DNA of 64,000 nt from Jiella sonneratiae (GTDB lineage Bacteria > Pseudomonadota > Alphaproteobacteria > Rhizobiales > Rhizobiaceae), in NCBI RefSeq assembly GCF_017353515.1, contig NZ_JAFMPY010000001.1, positions 62,001-126,000 on the forward strand. The letters run 5' to 3'. The notes under the pieces were generated by a model. It made no database searches and was not told the DNA's origin. It worked only from the letters and a program-made list of their open reading frames with translations. Each line of letters begins with the position of its first letter. The first letter of the stretch is position 1. Below, piece after piece: positions 33,186-39,233 of the stretch. The position numbers and the translations under genes were made by a program.

Positions 33186-34606
<1,421 letters not shown>

Positions 34607-34952: not shown

Positions 34953-37070
34953 ATGCCGCTTCCGCTCGAACATCTCGGCCGGCTCGGCCCGGGTGACCCC
35001 CGGGTGAAGATCGGCGTCGTCGACGGCCCGCCGGACCTTGCGATCGCAGCGCTGCGGGATGCGCCGATCGCGGTGGAGGCGACGATGCGGATCGCCGAGG
35101 CGCACCGCCCGGATGCGCACGGCACCGAGATCTGCAGCCTGCTGTTCGACGCGGCAAATGGCATCGCCGCCGGTTGTTCCGGGCTGGTCCTGCCGGTGTT
35201 CTTCCCGGATCCCCGGCCCTCGCACGAAGCGCCGCGGGCGACGCAGACCGACATCGCCCGGGCGATCTACATGGCGGTCGAGCGGGGCGTCTCGATCGTC
35301 AATGTCAGTGCCGGCCAGCTGTCGTCCACGGCCGAGGCGTCGCGGCATCTGGAGGATGCGCTGAAGCTCTGCGAACGCAGCGGCGTCCTCGTCGTGGCGG
35401 CGGCCGGCAACGACGGCTGCGCCTGCCTGCACGTGCCCGCCGCGGTGGCGACGGTGCTCGCCGTCGGCGCGATGGACGAGGACGGGCGGCCGCTCGCCAG
35501 TTCCAATTACGGTGCCGGCTACGGCGTCAACGGCGTCCTCGCCCCCGGCGTCGTGGCAGATCTCGCCACCGTCGGCGGCGAGCGGGTGAGCCGCAGCGGG
35601 TCGAGCTTCGCCACCGCCGTGGTCAGCGGCGTCGCGGCGCGGATGCTCTCGGCGGCGCGCCGGGCGGGCGCAGGCGTCGGCCCGCTCGACATCCGCGACA
35701 TCATCATCGGGACGGCCCGCCCCTGCGATCCGCAGGCGGACGGCGAATGCGCCCGCGTGCTCGCCGGGCGGCTGGACGTTGCGGCGGCGATCGCCCGCCT
35801 GCGCGAGACCACGGATGCGGCACGGGACGAACGGCCGCCGCCCGGGCGGGAAGGACAGGACCAGGAAACAGGGAGAGAGCCGATGATCAGGGACCCGATG
35901 TCGATCAGGCCGTCGACGGCGGCCATGCTGCCCCCCGGCAGGAGCCCGGGGCTCGCCGCCGTCGTCCAGTCGGACTGCGGCTGCGGCTGCGGCGGCAAGA
36001 AGAAGAAGGCGCGCCAGCAGCAGGACCCTGAGGACGGGGTGGACGACATGTCCGAGGCAGGCGTCTCAGCCGAGGCCTTGGAAGCCCTCGGCGGGCTCGG
36101 CGGGCTCGGCGACGACGCGGTGGACGATGACGACGACGAGACGGCCGGCGCGGCAGCCGCGCTGCAGTCGGCGCGGCCGCGGCTCCCGGCGAGCGGCCGC
36201 CTCCCGGGCCGCATCGTCCAGGCGGCGGAGCGGGCGGCCGTCACCCAGCAGGCCTGCGGCTGCGGCGGCTCCAGGGAGCCGCAGAAGGTCTATGCCCTCG
36301 GCTCGGTGTGGTTCGATTTCGGCAACGAGGCGCGCTACGACGCCATCGTCCAGCGCATGGGCGACCCCGTCGCGGCGAACACGCCGACCGCGCTGATCGA
36401 CATGCTGTCGAACGACCTCTCCTTCGCCACCGGCATCACCTTCATCCTGATGCAGGACCAAATTCCGATCTACGCGATCACGCCGGCCGGACCGTTCGCC
36501 CAGGAGGTCTACCGCGACCTTCTCGACGCGATGCGCACCAGCCTCGACAACACCGGCGACCTGCAGCGGGTGGCCTTGCCCGGCTACGTCCACGGCTCCA
36601 CCCGGCTGATGAACGGCATGATCCTGCCGGTGATCTATCCTGACCCCCGCGGCATGGCGAAATGGACCGCGCCGCAGCTCGTCACCGCCGCGAAGGCGGC
36701 GATCGGCGAGGAGAGCATCGACGAGGAGCCGATCTTCAACTTCCTCGTCCGGGTCTACGACGAGCTCCGCAATCTCGGCATCAGCCCCGAGGAGCGGGCG
36801 ATCAACTTCGCCGCGACCAACGCCTATCAGGGTGCCAGCGTCTTTGCCGACGGCATGCGGCGGGGCCTCGAACTCTACGGCATCCGCGTCACCAAGAGCC
36901 CGATCTGCCGGCCGGATTCCGACTGCTGGGACGTGCAGGTCTCGATGTTCGACGCCGAGAACGAGCGGCGCGCCGGCCGGGTCTACCGCTTCACCGTCGA
37001 CGTCAGCGAGGTGCTGCCGGTCACCGTCGGTGCCGGCCGCAGCTGGAGCGTGCCGCTCTCAGCGCTCTGA
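34953..37070 (+). CDS. Subtilisin-like protease fused to PatG-type (cyanobactin maturase) C-terminal domain
   Basis: A 705-residue, signal-less protein. Residues 15-270 are an S8 subtilase with catalytic Asp24 (GVVDGPPD), His56 (DAHGTEI), oxyanion Asn153 (AAGND) and Ser218 (GSSFAT), in the PatA/PatG manner. Residues 445-700 match the PatG C-terminal domain: VYALGSVWFDFGNEARYD, IPIYAITPAGPFA, INFAATNAYQ, KSPICRPDSDCWDVQVSMFD and FTVDVSEVLPVTVG. In cyanobactin pathways PatA cleaves and PatG cleaves and macrocyclises precursor peptides. The linker holds a precursor-like piece, residues 311-352, with VVQSDC and a Cys-Gly run, and a second Cys-Gly run near 432. A good ribosome site before the internal ATG at 35883 could also allow separate production of the C-terminal part. 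Two Cys-rich peptide genes follow. Confidence 0.88.
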   Translation: MPLPLEHLGRLGPGDPRVKIGVVDGPPDLAIAALRDAPIAVEATMRIAEAHRPDAHGTEICSLLFDAANGIAAGCSGLVLPVFFPDPRPSHEAPRATQTDIARAIYMAVERGVSIVNVSAGQLSSTAEASRHLEDALKLCERSGVLVVAAAGNDGCACLHVPAAVATVLAVGAMDEDGRPLASSNYGAGYGVNGVLAPGVVADLATVGGERVSRSGSSFATAVVSGVAARMLSAARRAGAGVGPLDIRDIIIGTARPCDPQADGECARVLAGRLDVAAAIARLRETTDAARDERPPPGREGQDQETGREPMIRDPMSIRPSTAAMLPPGRSPGLAAVVQSDCGCGCGGKKKKARQQQDPEDGVDDMSEAGVSAEALEALGGLGGLGDDAVDDDDDETAGAAAALQSARPRLPASGRLPGRIVQAAERAAVTQQACGCGGSREPQKVYALGSVWFDFGNEARYDAIVQRMGDPVAANTPTALIDMLSNDLSFATGITFILMQDQIPIYAITPAGPFAQEVYRDLLDAMRTSLDNTGDLQRVALPGYVHGSTRLMNGMILPVIYPDPRGMAKWTAPQLVTAAKAAIGEESIDEEPIFNFLVRVYDELRNLGISPEERAINFAATNAYQGASVFADGMRRGLELYGIRVTKSPICRPDSDCWDVQVSMFDAENERRAGRVYRFTVDVSEVLPVTVGAGRSWSVPLSAL

Positions 37071-37274
37071 GCGGCGGCCGCGGAACGCCGCGGGAGGCTC
37101 CGGCGCGCTGCGCCGCTGCCGCCCCGGGCTTTCAAGGCAAAGGCCCGCGGCGCCCACACGGGCTCGAATGGCCGGCGCACGGTGCGCCGGTCCGCAGGGA
37201 CCCGGCCATTCGCCGGGTGGAAGGCGCCGGACGCACGCACGTGTCCGGCCATCATCGAAGGAGGAGACCGAAGC

Positions 37275-37451
37275 ATGAGAACACCCAATCTCGCCCGTCC
37301 GGTGGAGCGCCGGCCGGCCGGCATGGCGCGGTCCGCGTCGGGCGTGGGCCAGTCCGATTGCTGCGGCAGCGGACAATGCTGCGTCGGCGCCTGTATTCCG
37401 TTCGTCAACAAATGCGCCGGCATCTGCGTCCCGAACATCGGCCAGTGCTGA
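37275..37451 (+). CDS. Putative Cys-rich precursor peptide 1 (RiPP-like)
   Basis: A 58-residue peptide with the strongest ribosome site in the area (GAAGGAGGAGACC before the ATG). The first 27 residues form a charged leader (MRTPNLARPVERRPAG) ending in GVGQS; the rest holds eight Cys at 29, 30, 35, 36, 40, 47, 51 and 58, with Gly, Pro and Asn between. The leader end resembles precursor 2 and a segment inside the PatG-like protease (VVQSDC). Gene position, 204 bp after the maturase, supports a maturase-substrate relation. It could instead be a disulfide-rich secreted peptide, but it has no Sec signal. Confidence 0.7.
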   Translation: MRTPNLARPVERRPAGMARSASGVGQSDCCGSGQCCVGACIPFVNKCAGICVPNIGQC

Positions 37452-37475
37452 ATCGCCAATCCCAAGGAGGAATCC

Positions 37476-37484
37476 ATGCGTTGA
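37476..37484 (+). other. Three-codon frame ATG-CGT-TGA at the expected start of precursor 2
   Basis: The excellent ribosome site AAGGAGGAATCC leads to this ATG, which is in frame with precursor 2 but meets TGA at codon 3. Translated through, the codons read MR-stop-PTIAAPV, which aligns with MRTPNLARPV of precursor 1, so the TGA replaces the Thr codon. Confidence 0.75.
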
Positions 37485-37505
37485 CCCACCATCGCGGCGC
37501 CCGTC

Positions 37506-37688
37506 ATGCGCGGCCACGTCGTCGCTTCCGCGCCGGGCGGCGTCGGACAGTCCTTCAGCTGGTCGTGCCTGCTGAAATGCGGCGCCAAGCTGATCCGCTG
37601 CGCCCCGCAATGCATCCCGAACCCGCTCAATCCGGGCTGCATCAGCTGCCTCGGCTCGTCCTGGAGCACCTGCAAGAGCTGCTTCTGA
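37506..37688 (+). CDS. Putative Cys-rich precursor peptide 2 (start disrupted by TGA, possible reinitiation)
   Basis: A 60-residue frame from the ATG at 37506, with leader-like MRGHVVASAPGGVGQS and then eight Cys at 21, 25, 32, 36, 45, 48, 56 and 59, ending SCF. The same number of Cys and the shared GVGQS with precursor 1 indicate a family. The natural start is probably 37476, but codon 3 there is TGA. Either the gene is a fresh pseudogene, or ribosomes terminate and restart at 37506, 22 nt downstream, or the base call is wrong. The reading frame downstream shows no other damage, which argues against long-standing decay. Confidence 0.6.
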   Translation: MRGHVVASAPGGVGQSFSWSCLLKCGAKLIRCAPQCIPNPLNPGCISCLGSSWSTCKSCF

Positions 37689-37814
37689 ACGCTCCCCGGG
37701 CCGCCGCCCGAAGACAGAGTCGCAGGGTCCGGCGGCCCGTCGCCCGGCATTTACCGCGCCGGAGGGCGTCCGACCCCGGCGGACGGCGCAACGGCGACGC
37801 GAATGCGTCACCTC

Positions 37815-37849
37815 ATACGAGATCCGCTCGATCAGAGCGGGGCTCGTAT
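37815..37849. repeat. Inverted repeat (hairpin) downstream of the peptide genes, first
   Basis: Nested arms ATACGAG/CTCGTAT and CCGCTC/GAGCGG surround the loop GATCA. No T-run follows. It may end or protect the peptide transcript. Confidence 0.7.
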
Positions 37850-37869
37850 CAAGCCCGTGCGGCGAATGA

Positions 37870-37922
37870 GCGTCTTTGTTTCCGGCATCACGAAGTGATC
37901 TGCCGGAAACCGGTTGAGACGC
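37870..37922. repeat. Inverted repeat (hairpin) downstream of the peptide genes, second
   Basis: Arms GTTTCCGGCA and TGCCGGAAAC enclose an inner TCAC-GAA-GTGA hairpin; outside them GCGTCT pairs with AGACGC. The 345-bp spacer 37689-38033 otherwise holds nothing clear. Confidence 0.75.
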
Positions 37923-38033
37923 GTCTGCGGCTGCCTTCTCTGCTGCGCGCCAAGCGTGACAAAAAACACCGACGACCGCGCGCCACGGCCGGCCCGGGTC
38001 ATCGAAACGCTCGTCGACAAGGAGGGTCGTCTG

Positions 38034-38237
38034 ATGGACATGCCCCGCCAGGTGAAGCCGCAGCCGCGCCTGTTCATGCAGGAGATCGTCGGACGCGAGT
38101 GGGTGCCCGAGGCCGAGGCGCGGAGCGTTCCCAAGGATCTCCTCGTCGCCAAAACCGCCAAGCCGAAGCGCCGCGGCAGGAAGAGCGCCTCCTCGGCATG
38201 CCTGCACCGGCTGACGACCTTCTCCGTCGCCGGCTGA
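38034..38237 (+). CDS. Small basic hypothetical protein
   Basis: A 67-residue protein beginning MDMPRQVKPQPRLFMQEI after an AAGGAGGG site at good spacing. It has a basic patch (AKPKRRGRKS) in the C-terminal third and one Cys. A GTG at 37956 would extend it by 26 residues but lacks a ribosome site and overlaps the hairpin region. I do not recognise it; its place just after the peptide genes makes a link possible. Confidence 0.5.
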   Translation: MDMPRQVKPQPRLFMQEIVGREWVPEAEARSVPKDLLVAKTAKPKRRGRKSASSACLHRLTTFSVAG

Positions 38238-38273: not shown

Positions 38274-39233
38274 TCAGGCCGCCGGTTCGAAGCGATCGGT
38301 CGCCTCGACGAGTTCGTGCAGGATCGGCGGCTCGGCGAATGCGTGACCGGCCCCTTCCGCCAGCCGGAAGATTGCCTTCGGCCAGGCCTGGGCGAACTGC
38401 CAGGCGGTGATCGCCGGGGTCACCACGTCGTAGCGGCCCTGGACGATGACGCCCGGGATCGCTTCGAGGCGGCCCATGTTGGCCAGCAGCTGCCCCTCCT
38501 CCAGCCACAGGTCGTGAAAGAAGAAGTGGTTCTCGATCCGCGCGAAGGCGATCTGCCCGTCGCTGACGCCGATGCCCGTCGAGCGCGTCGGCGGGTTGCT
38601 GGTCCGCATCATCACGGTGGCCGCTTCCCAGGCGGTCCAGGCCTGGGCGGCCTTGGCGCGCACGCTGCGGTCGGGGTCGGTCAACCGTCGCCGGTAGGCC
38701 GCGATCAGGTCGTCCTGCTCGGCGACCGGGACCTCGGCCACGAGATCCTCCCAGTGGTCGGGAAACAGCCGGTTGGCGCCGCCCTCGTAGAACCAGTCGA
38801 GCTCCGAGCGCCGACCCGAGAAGATGCCGCGCAGGATCAGGCCGAGCACCCGCCCCGGATGCGCCTGGGCGTAGGCGAGCGCCAGCGTCGCGCCCCATGA
38901 GCCGCCGAACAGCAGCCAGCGTTCGACGCCGAGATGCCGGCGCAGCCGCTCCATGTCGTCGACGAGGTGCCAGGTCGTGTTGGCCTCGAGCGATCCGAGC
39001 GGCGTCGACCGGCCGCTGCCGCGCTGATCGAACAGGACGATGTGGTATTTCGCCGGGTCGAACAGCCGGCGATGCTGCGTCGAGCTGCCGCTGCCCGGCC
39101 CGCCGTGCAGGAAGACCACCGGCAGACCGCTGCGGTTTCCGCACTCCTCGAAGTAGATCTCGTGGCCGTCGCCGACGTCGAGGCGGCCGATGCGGAACGG
39201 ATCGATCGGCGGATAGGGTTTGCGCGGTGCCAT
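38274..39233 (-). CDS. pip: Prolyl aminopeptidase, copy 2
   Basis: A 319-residue S33 peptidase paralogous to the copy at 33186-34127. It shows HGGPGSGSS, LFDQRGSGRSTP, nucleophile elbow GGSWGA and catalytic His in EGAGHAF. Sequence differs throughout, so this is not a recent duplication. AAGG precedes the ATG at 8 bp. Two such genes within 6 kb, bracketing a peptide locus, is unusual; Pro residues are frequent in the peptides' leaders and cores. Confidence 0.93.
   Translation of the reverse strand: MAPRKPYPPIDPFRIGRLDVGDGHEIYFEECGNRSGLPVVFLHGGPGSGSSTQHRRLFDPAKYHIVLFDQRGSGRSTPLGSLEANTTWHLVDDMERLRRHLGVERWLLFGGSWGATLALAYAQAHPGRVLGLILRGIFSGRRSELDWFYEGGANRLFPDHWEDLVAEVPVAEQDDLIAAYRRRLTDPDRSVRAKAAQAWTAWEAATVMMRTSNPPTRSTGIGVSDGQIAFARIENHFFFHDLWLEEGQLLANMGRLEAIPGVIVQGRYDVVTPAITAWQFAQAWPKAIFRLAEGAGHAFAEPPILHELVEATDRFEPAA

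Follow-up and report, generated by a model that had tools for sequence, protein, structure and literature searches.

Cyanobactin enzymes serve as tools for making cyclic peptides; a YcaO heterocyclase is present in azoline cyanobactins, and some cyanobactins have none. In the available excerpts of the papers cited here and below, the cleavage site of PatA-like enzymes lies behind G(L/V)E(A/P)S and that of PatG-like enzymes in front of AYDG (PMC10885120), a two-helix macrocyclization insert is a feature of PatG (PMC4663559), NILPQQGQPVIR appears in print among cyanobactin peptides (PMC5108345), and PatA and PatG have in common a C-terminal domain that is without a settled role (PMC4259220). The nearest published case to the system described here is a Streptomyces scabies protein that has a PatG C-terminal domain and is encoded next to four short peptides (PMC7369419). 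Here we analyze a locus in a 64,000-nucleotide stretch of Jiella sonneratiae ("the window"; coordinates are positions within it) in which the gene for a PatA-type maturase is followed by two genes for cysteine-rich peptides. No published account of a PatA-type maturase with cysteine-rich alphaproteobacterial precursors was found among the literature matches listed, judged by title and opening of the abstract, which is weak evidence, most subscription journals lying outside the coverage.

We propose, with a probability of about 0.72, that this is a minimal maturase-plus-precursor locus. Its small genes would encode precursors composed of a cyanobactin-like leader, xPx(Q/L/I)xxPVxR, a spacer, a junction such as GVGQS, GVEPS or GIAPS and a core of paired cysteines. 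The adjacent PatA-type subtilase would cut after the serine at the leader-core junction and release a linear peptide, of 31 to 45 residues for the eight-cysteine types, that would fold with three or four disulfides and undergo neither heterocyclization nor N-to-C macrocyclization. The peptide may be secreted and may have an antibacterial or signaling role. Such a locus is probably related to a known natural-product pathway, of which it would be a simpler form without cyclization.

Peptide genes accompany the maturase in rhizobial genomes

A scan of genome contigs gave four relatives of the locus (Jiella endophytica, two Aurantimonas and one Fulvimarina metagenome-assembled genome), and a search at the protein level through 199 family genomes gave 19 with any match, of which nine have a full maturase, C-terminal domain included, and ten a subtilase match only. 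With genome G137 and the Aurantimonas manganoxydans locus L004 counted as one, their downstream peptides being identical, 12 distinct rhizobial loci were examined, the window included. These yielded a set of 31 precursors, which counts the window's interrupted precursor and excludes a frameshifted remnant in Jiella. Six plasmid loci out of 71 matching plasmid records formed a wider set, and counts of neighboring genes and leader patterns were made on 18 maturase loci.

Leader-bearing, cysteine-rich open reading frames (ORFs) lie within 2.2 kilobases (kb) downstream of the maturase in all 12 rhizobial loci, and the first precursor begins 0 to ~400 bases 3' of it across loci. The preliminary description of this DNA had proposed a peptide-maturation locus with a PatG-like protease, making modified or cyclic peptides, and had suggested looking for conserved peptides beside related maturases. 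Their presence in 12 of 12 loci supports the maturation locus; macrocyclization is not supported, given a PatA-like protease domain and precursors without a tail. Only two ORFs of 40 to 130 residues in the 64-kb window have at least eight cysteines within 45 residues, and both are the precursors; with no others in the window, the cysteine-dense ORFs of the locus are more than chance.

Profiles of two of the core types (A and B, described below) were built from these same loci, so that their positives carry little weight and their absences do. The type-A profile matched at an expectation value (E) below 1e-20 in nine of the 199 family genomes, the same nine that have a full maturase, always within ~2.5 kb of it; none of the 190 genomes without a full maturase had a strong match, and 26 further genomes matched weakly only (E 0.003 to 0.1). 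The type-B profile was applied to a selection of 20 genomes: nine with a rhizobial maturase, an alphaproteobacterium of another family (G445) and ten without a maturase. Matches were strong in six of the nine (G000, G086, G080, G177, G165 and G067), weak in G137 (E 0.004) and absent from G031, G130 and G445, and three of the ten genomes without a maturase gave weak matches only (E 0.02 to 0.08).

In the 46.7 kb that lie downstream of the maturases, a strict form of the leader pattern picked out 30 distinct ORFs (32 starts), at 16 of the 18 loci; 594.7 kb-strands from other parts of the same 18 loci gave no match. One of the 30 is the PatB of a Gloeothece plasmid, which is no precursor. Downstream of the maturase the strict pattern was absent at L076 and L079, a looser one finding five ORFs at L079; across the whole window it also made two unrelated matches. 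The pattern was written after the peptides had been seen, so the counts measure background and are no blind test.

Precursors have similar leaders and junctions and even numbers of cysteines

By a loose pattern, the leader motif is present in 30 of the 31 precursors. The start of the rhizobial leaders resembles the printed cyanobactin peptide NILPQQGQPVIR, which we take to be the PatE leader; to our knowledge, no role has been assigned to the conserved start of the cyanobactin-type leader. Junctions before the core read GVEPS, GVTPS, GIAPS, GIHPS or GVGQS, with others, such as GAVGLS or NVTAS, less alike: L041 has GVEPS exactly, L037 GVTPS, L035 GIAPS and the window GVGQS. The cores fall into type A (for example SGCNVFK...), type B (DCCGxGxCCxGAC...CVPNIGQC) and type C (CxxCxxxC...CxxxC...C), and when aligned they show invariant cysteines in most of the cysteine columns and variation over much of the remainder. 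From residue 16 to the end the number of cysteines is even in all 31 precursors (eight in 20, six in nine and four in two), a pairing that would be expected of a disulfide-rich, leader-cleaved bacteriocin. The last cysteine is followed by 0 to 5 residues in every precursor.

Among six full-length type-B copies (58 residues), mean identity was 44% in the leader and 91% in the core. The type-B cores of the window and L035 differ at six of 31 positions (81% identical), and the corresponding maturases are 37 to 45% identical over aligned pieces. Ratios of nonsynonymous to synonymous substitution (dN/dS) were 0.24 to 0.49 for type A (ten pairs; window against Jiella, dN 0.127 and dS 0.525), 0.39 for a single type-B pair and 0.21 to 0.67 for a third conserved small gene of the locus, and these substitution counts point to purifying selection on precursors and third gene. 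Searches of solved structures with the type-A and type-B profiles gave chance-level matches only (E 0.93 to 4.1), and no Pfam family matched the precursors scanned.

The maturase has a PatA-like protease domain

Against TIGR03895, the PatA/PatG maturation protease model, the window maturase scored 732.9 bits over model positions 1 to 606 (curated cut-off 421), and it is 73 to 74% identical to the Jiella, Aurantimonas and Fulvimarina copies. In a class sample, 142 of 385 genomes matched the model at E ≤0.001, mostly through the subtilase part among the matches listed, and two passed the cut-off (G000 and G445). A second, overlapping class sample centered on G445 (n = 385) gave one match, G445 itself, and PF18065 was found in two of 398 genomes of a phylum sample. 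The intact subtilase triad that had been reported appears sound, its Asp-His-Ser columns agreeing with both the motif alignment and the PatA alignment. Together with Asn153, these columns (Asp24, His56 and Ser218) are conserved in 17 other aligned maturases; the exception is a truncated Nostoc copy without the Ser region. That copy was excluded from the maturase tree, in which G445 and the Aurantimonadaceae form long branches whose joining was not used. A structure prediction of the maturase from a five-sequence alignment had a mean predicted local distance difference test score of 36, and no conclusion was drawn from it.

The label "PatG-type" given to this protein at first is apt in that its C-terminal domain matches that of PatG, and loose in that this domain is common to PatA and PatG and that the protease domain matches PatA over its full length: residues 13 to 284 align to PatA (4h6v, 3zxx) and to 4h6w with no insertion of more than ~6 residues. 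In the window genome there is one maturase match, and another match to TIGR03895, at 34 bits, is confined to part of the subtilase region; a second PatG-type protease with the macrocyclization insert was not found there, the sole maturase being PatA-like. Were the maturase nevertheless to act like PatG, it would cut on the C-terminal side and macrocyclize the cysteine-rich core into a cyclic product, for which one can cite the PatG-like C-terminal domain and the fact that the TIGR03895 model spans both PatA and PatG. We regard this as highly improbable: PatG macrocyclase structures (4h6x) align over residues 97 to 280 only, where PatA aligns end to end, and the at most five residues after the last cysteine leave no AYDG-like tail to cut.

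A precursor-like junction in the maturase linker

All 12 rhizobial maturases have a copy of the precursor junction between the protease and C-terminal domains. It reads QS-DCGCG in all five Aurantimonadaceae; in the other seven it is PS-DCGC, save for one AS-DCGC. Likewise, leaders end in QS in all ten Aurantimonadaceae precursors (type A, type B and a short four-cysteine type) and in PS in 10 of 13 type-A and type-B precursors of the other seven rhizobial loci. The residue before the serine changes together in linker and precursor, which suggests that the protease reads both, with the caveat that the QS/PS difference separates two groups and counts as one event. Because the linker carries the junction sequence of the precursors, the alignments suggest that the maturase may cut itself between protease and C-terminal domain, a proposal we hold less surely than the precursor cut. 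The CGC motifs of the linker were also considered, on general chemical grounds, as a disulfide isomerase; this idea was weakened by the presence of CGC in Streptomyces maturases whose peptides are mostly cysteine-free.

Other enzymes and neighboring genes

The preliminary description had seen no YcaO nearby, and the search extended this to the entire window genome, where YcaO had no match. Among ten maturase genomes, YcaO was found in three, on contigs other than that of the maturase, and seven had no match. Within flanks of up to ~10 kb, no gene besides the maturase recurs in more than four of the 18 loci. Cysteine-rich cores are the usual substrates of enzymes that form thiazolines or thioethers, and this, together with the three YcaO-bearing genomes, would favor a scheme in which the maturase removes the leader only and such cysteine modifications are installed by enzymes encoded elsewhere. 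We consider that scheme distinctly unlikely, given the seven genomes without YcaO (the window's among them; lanthipeptide/LanB/LanM and radical S-adenosylmethionine enzymes were not searched for), the want of any partner gene recurring in more than four of the 18 loci and the even cysteine counts throughout, and we prefer simple leader removal followed by disulfide pairing.

By eye, the recurring neighbors were a translation GTPase (four loci), a TetR-type regulator (three) and a cytochrome-oxidase-like protein (three). This comparison relied on a simple ORF caller; the DNA being G+C-rich, several of the clusters counted as shared may be artefacts of a wrong reading frame, and the maturases of L005, L037 and L038 were missed. 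The third conserved small gene, which lies inside the span of the preliminary description and went undescribed there, has tblastn matches in four other Aurantimonadaceae loci (59 to 66% identity) and matches neither Pfam nor NCBIfam models at E up to 1. Its product has a leader-like start, MDMPRQxxPQPR, and a basic middle. Two paralogous prolyl aminopeptidase genes bracket the locus on the minus strand (33186-34127 and 38274-39233), and genes related to prolyl aminopeptidases also stand on both sides of the locus in L002 and L004.

Related loci outside the rhizobial set

On Gloeocapsa and Nostoc plasmids, one leader-bearing, cysteine-rich ORF lies ~130 bases 3' of a standalone maturase. The Gloeocapsa ORF (L075:10864 onwards), with MKLPVQAAPVQRGG and SGIKPS, has no entry in the gene table of the plasmid collection. 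Two Streptomyces plasmids (NZ_CP109590 and NZ_CP108040) instead carry tandem short ORFs with PxQxPP(I/V)xR and GVEA, mostly free of cysteine. These tandem peptides (L078:11580-12979 and L079:11764-12750), several of them nearly identical, are annotated as hypothetical proteins, and in most of them GVEA is followed by a hydrophobic, cysteine-free core, beside PatA-like proteases. G445 has two tandem peptides that begin MRKPxQxxxVERG and have hydrophobic, cysteine-free cores.

A Gloeothece plasmid holds a cyanobactin cluster with annotated PatB and PatC, and the leader motif stands at the start of its PatB. This PatB/AcyB/McaB family protein (TIGR04220; Gloeothece verrucosa, L077:13388-13603) starts MRLPKLAPPVKR, a motif like that of the precursor leaders; the family is reported to be non-essential. 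PatB may be a leader-bearing decoy, an accessory or a former precursor.

These loci bear on a further explanation of the rhizobial peptides, namely that they are intracellular metal binders that the protease regulates or is regulated by. Metal binding would suit the CC and CxxC pairs of the cores and the CGCGCGG of the linker, and the conservation of the type-B core relative to its leader fits a constant function better than a toxin that varies. Leader-bearing peptides with cysteine-free hydrophobic cores, however, adjoin similar maturases in Streptomyces and in G445, which excludes a general role in metal binding, and we think this explanation very unlikely.

Points against the proposal and possible decay in the window's lineage

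Several observations weigh against a working maturase-plus-precursor locus of cyanobactin type. Two eight-cysteine genes with strong ribosome-binding sites had been reported, and AAGGAGG, eight cysteines and GVGQS are indeed there in both. Precursor 2, however, is interrupted: its ATG at 37476 is served by the ribosome-binding site, but codon 3 is TGA (37482-37484), in place of a serine codon in four relatives whose frame is uninterrupted there, and no ribosome-binding site was seen before its internal ATG at 37506. Precursor 2 is therefore probably silent in the window genome and precursor 1, the clearly expressed one as far as the DNA can tell, is the likely product; the type-B profile, in which precursor 1 is itself included, matches it at E 7.4e-29. 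The reverse is found in Jiella endophytica (L002:10280-10510), where the type-B precursor is a frameshifted remnant and type A is intact. With one precursor interrupted in the window and the other in Jiella endophytica, the locus may be decaying, at least partly, in the window's lineage, and the two peptides may not depend strictly on each other. In the 199-genome sample the window's genus is represented by three other genomes, all of which lack the locus.

From these same observations one could argue that the locus in the window genome is a decaying remnant without a product. We judge this unlikely, as the maturase and precursor 1 are intact with ribosome-binding sites, and eight cysteines and a low dN/dS persist in the remainder of precursor 2, so that any loss is recent or an assembly error.

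The other points concern the likeness to cyanobactins and the working of the pathway. Both leaders of the window depart from most others at one position, with L and I in place of Q, and their junction GVGQS falls outside the printed consensus. The NCBIfam cyanobactin leader models matched weakly, below cut-off, in three of ten peptides (E 0.04 to 0.06), none of them the window's: TIGR03678 in the G080 type-A peptide (E 0.042) and in Nostoc (0.059), and TIGR04446 in Gloeocapsa (0.044). Among 12 type-A peptides one matched, again not the window's, and since TIGR03678 also matches nine of 14 control genomes when E values up to 10 are admitted, the leader-model matches by themselves would be no proof. 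At the Acaryochloris locus no leader-bearing ORF was found. No recurring exporter or immunity candidate was close to the locus in the 18 loci (flanks up to ~10 kb); an ATP-binding cassette transporter ATPase 7 to 9 kb upstream in three Aurantimonadaceae loci is too distant and too narrowly distributed to be a shared exporter. Finally, in the excerpt of the PatG domain study, the isolated C-terminal domain showed no PatE binding by nuclear magnetic resonance, and the PatA and PatG protease domains were active alone (PMC4259220). A leader-reading role of the PatG-type C-terminal domain is attractive since domain and leader co-occur; with that binding result it was kept only as a lead.

Features of the locus in the window, with the evidence for each
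Feature	Position	Strand	Basis
Maturase, 705 residues: PatA-type subtilase, cysteine-containing linker and PatG_D/PatG_C domain	34953..37070	+	TIGR03895, PF00082, PF18047, PF18065
Protease domain, residues 13-284	34989..35804	+	phmmer to PatA 4h6v, E 7e-60
Asp24	35022-35024	+	subtilase motif column
His56	35118-35120	+	subtilase motif column
Asn153	35409-35411	+	subtilase motif column
Ser218	35604-35606	+	subtilase motif column
Linker copy of the precursor junction, QS-DCGCGCGG, residues 339-348	35967..35996	+	linker alignment
Second linker cysteine motif, QQACGCGG, residues 432-439	36246..36269	+	alignment A4 and linker list
PatA/PatG-type C-terminal domain, residues 445-701	36285..37055	+	phmmer to PatG-DUF crystal structure 4uvq, E 1.7e-55
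Ribosome-binding site AAGGAGG, precursor 1	37258..37264	+	sequence
Precursor 1 (type B), 58 residues: leader ...GVGQS, 27 residues; core DCCGSGQCCVGAC...NIGQC, 31 residues, eight cysteines	37275..37451	+	
Ribosome-binding site AAGGAGG, precursor 2	37464..37470	+	sequence
Precursor 2 (type A), 70 codons, eight core cysteines, leader ending GVGQS	37476..37688	+	type-A profile E 7.8e-26; one TGA inside
Uninterrupted part of precursor 2, 60 residues, first part of leader missing	37506..37688	+	internal ATG, mid-leader
Third conserved small gene, 67 residues, starts MDMPRQVKPQPR, no cysteine-rich core	38034..38237	+	tblastn

A possible wider peptide class

More tentatively, and with less than an even chance of being right, these loci could belong to a phylum-spanning class of ribosomal peptides that are matured by a maturase only, in Alphaproteobacteria, Streptomyces and cyanobacteria, with cyanobactins as a derived, further-decorated branch or a sister. 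One PatA-type protease and a shared xPxQxxPVxR leader would then serve eight-cysteine, six-cysteine and cysteine-free cores, and a self-cutting protease with its own substrate site would couple its activation to precursor processing. The system extends cyanobactin-type maturation logic into alphaproteobacteria and actinobacteria, and to cores that are disulfide-rich or cysteine-free. With a protease, its C-terminal domain and a leader of similar motif, the locus lets both the domain and the leader be tested with almost nothing else present. The pairing of a maturase with leader-bearing small ORFs also offers a search rule for peptides that annotation can miss.

Comparison with known systems

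Streptomyces scabies SCAB_66631 resembles the rhizobial maturases in being a non-cyanobacterial protein with a PatG C-terminal domain beside short peptides; its reported homology is to the C-terminal domain only, and the excerpt describes no leader motif, cut site or cysteine-rich core (PMC7369419). The Streptomyces plasmid loci are alike in having a PatA-like protease with C-terminal domain followed by tandem short leader-bearing ORFs, and differ in that most cores are cysteine-free and apparently hydrophobic or amphipathic. Prochloron PatA (4h6v, 3zxx) and the cyanobactin protease 4h6w align over the full protease domain, with the triad motifs kept, whereas the window maturase has a linker with the precursor-like QS-DCGCGCGG and is directly followed by its precursors. 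With patellamide-type cyanobactins (PatA, PatE, PatG and PatD), the rhizobial system shares a PatA-family protease with C-terminal domain; its leader start, xPxQxxPVxR, is similar, and its junction (GVEPS, GIAPS, GVGQS) likewise ends in serine. It differs in its alphaproteobacterial host, in the absence of YcaO (window genome), of a second, PatG-type protease and of a follower sequence, and in its eight-cysteine cores of 31 to 45 residues, which are conserved across genera and present as one core per precursor.

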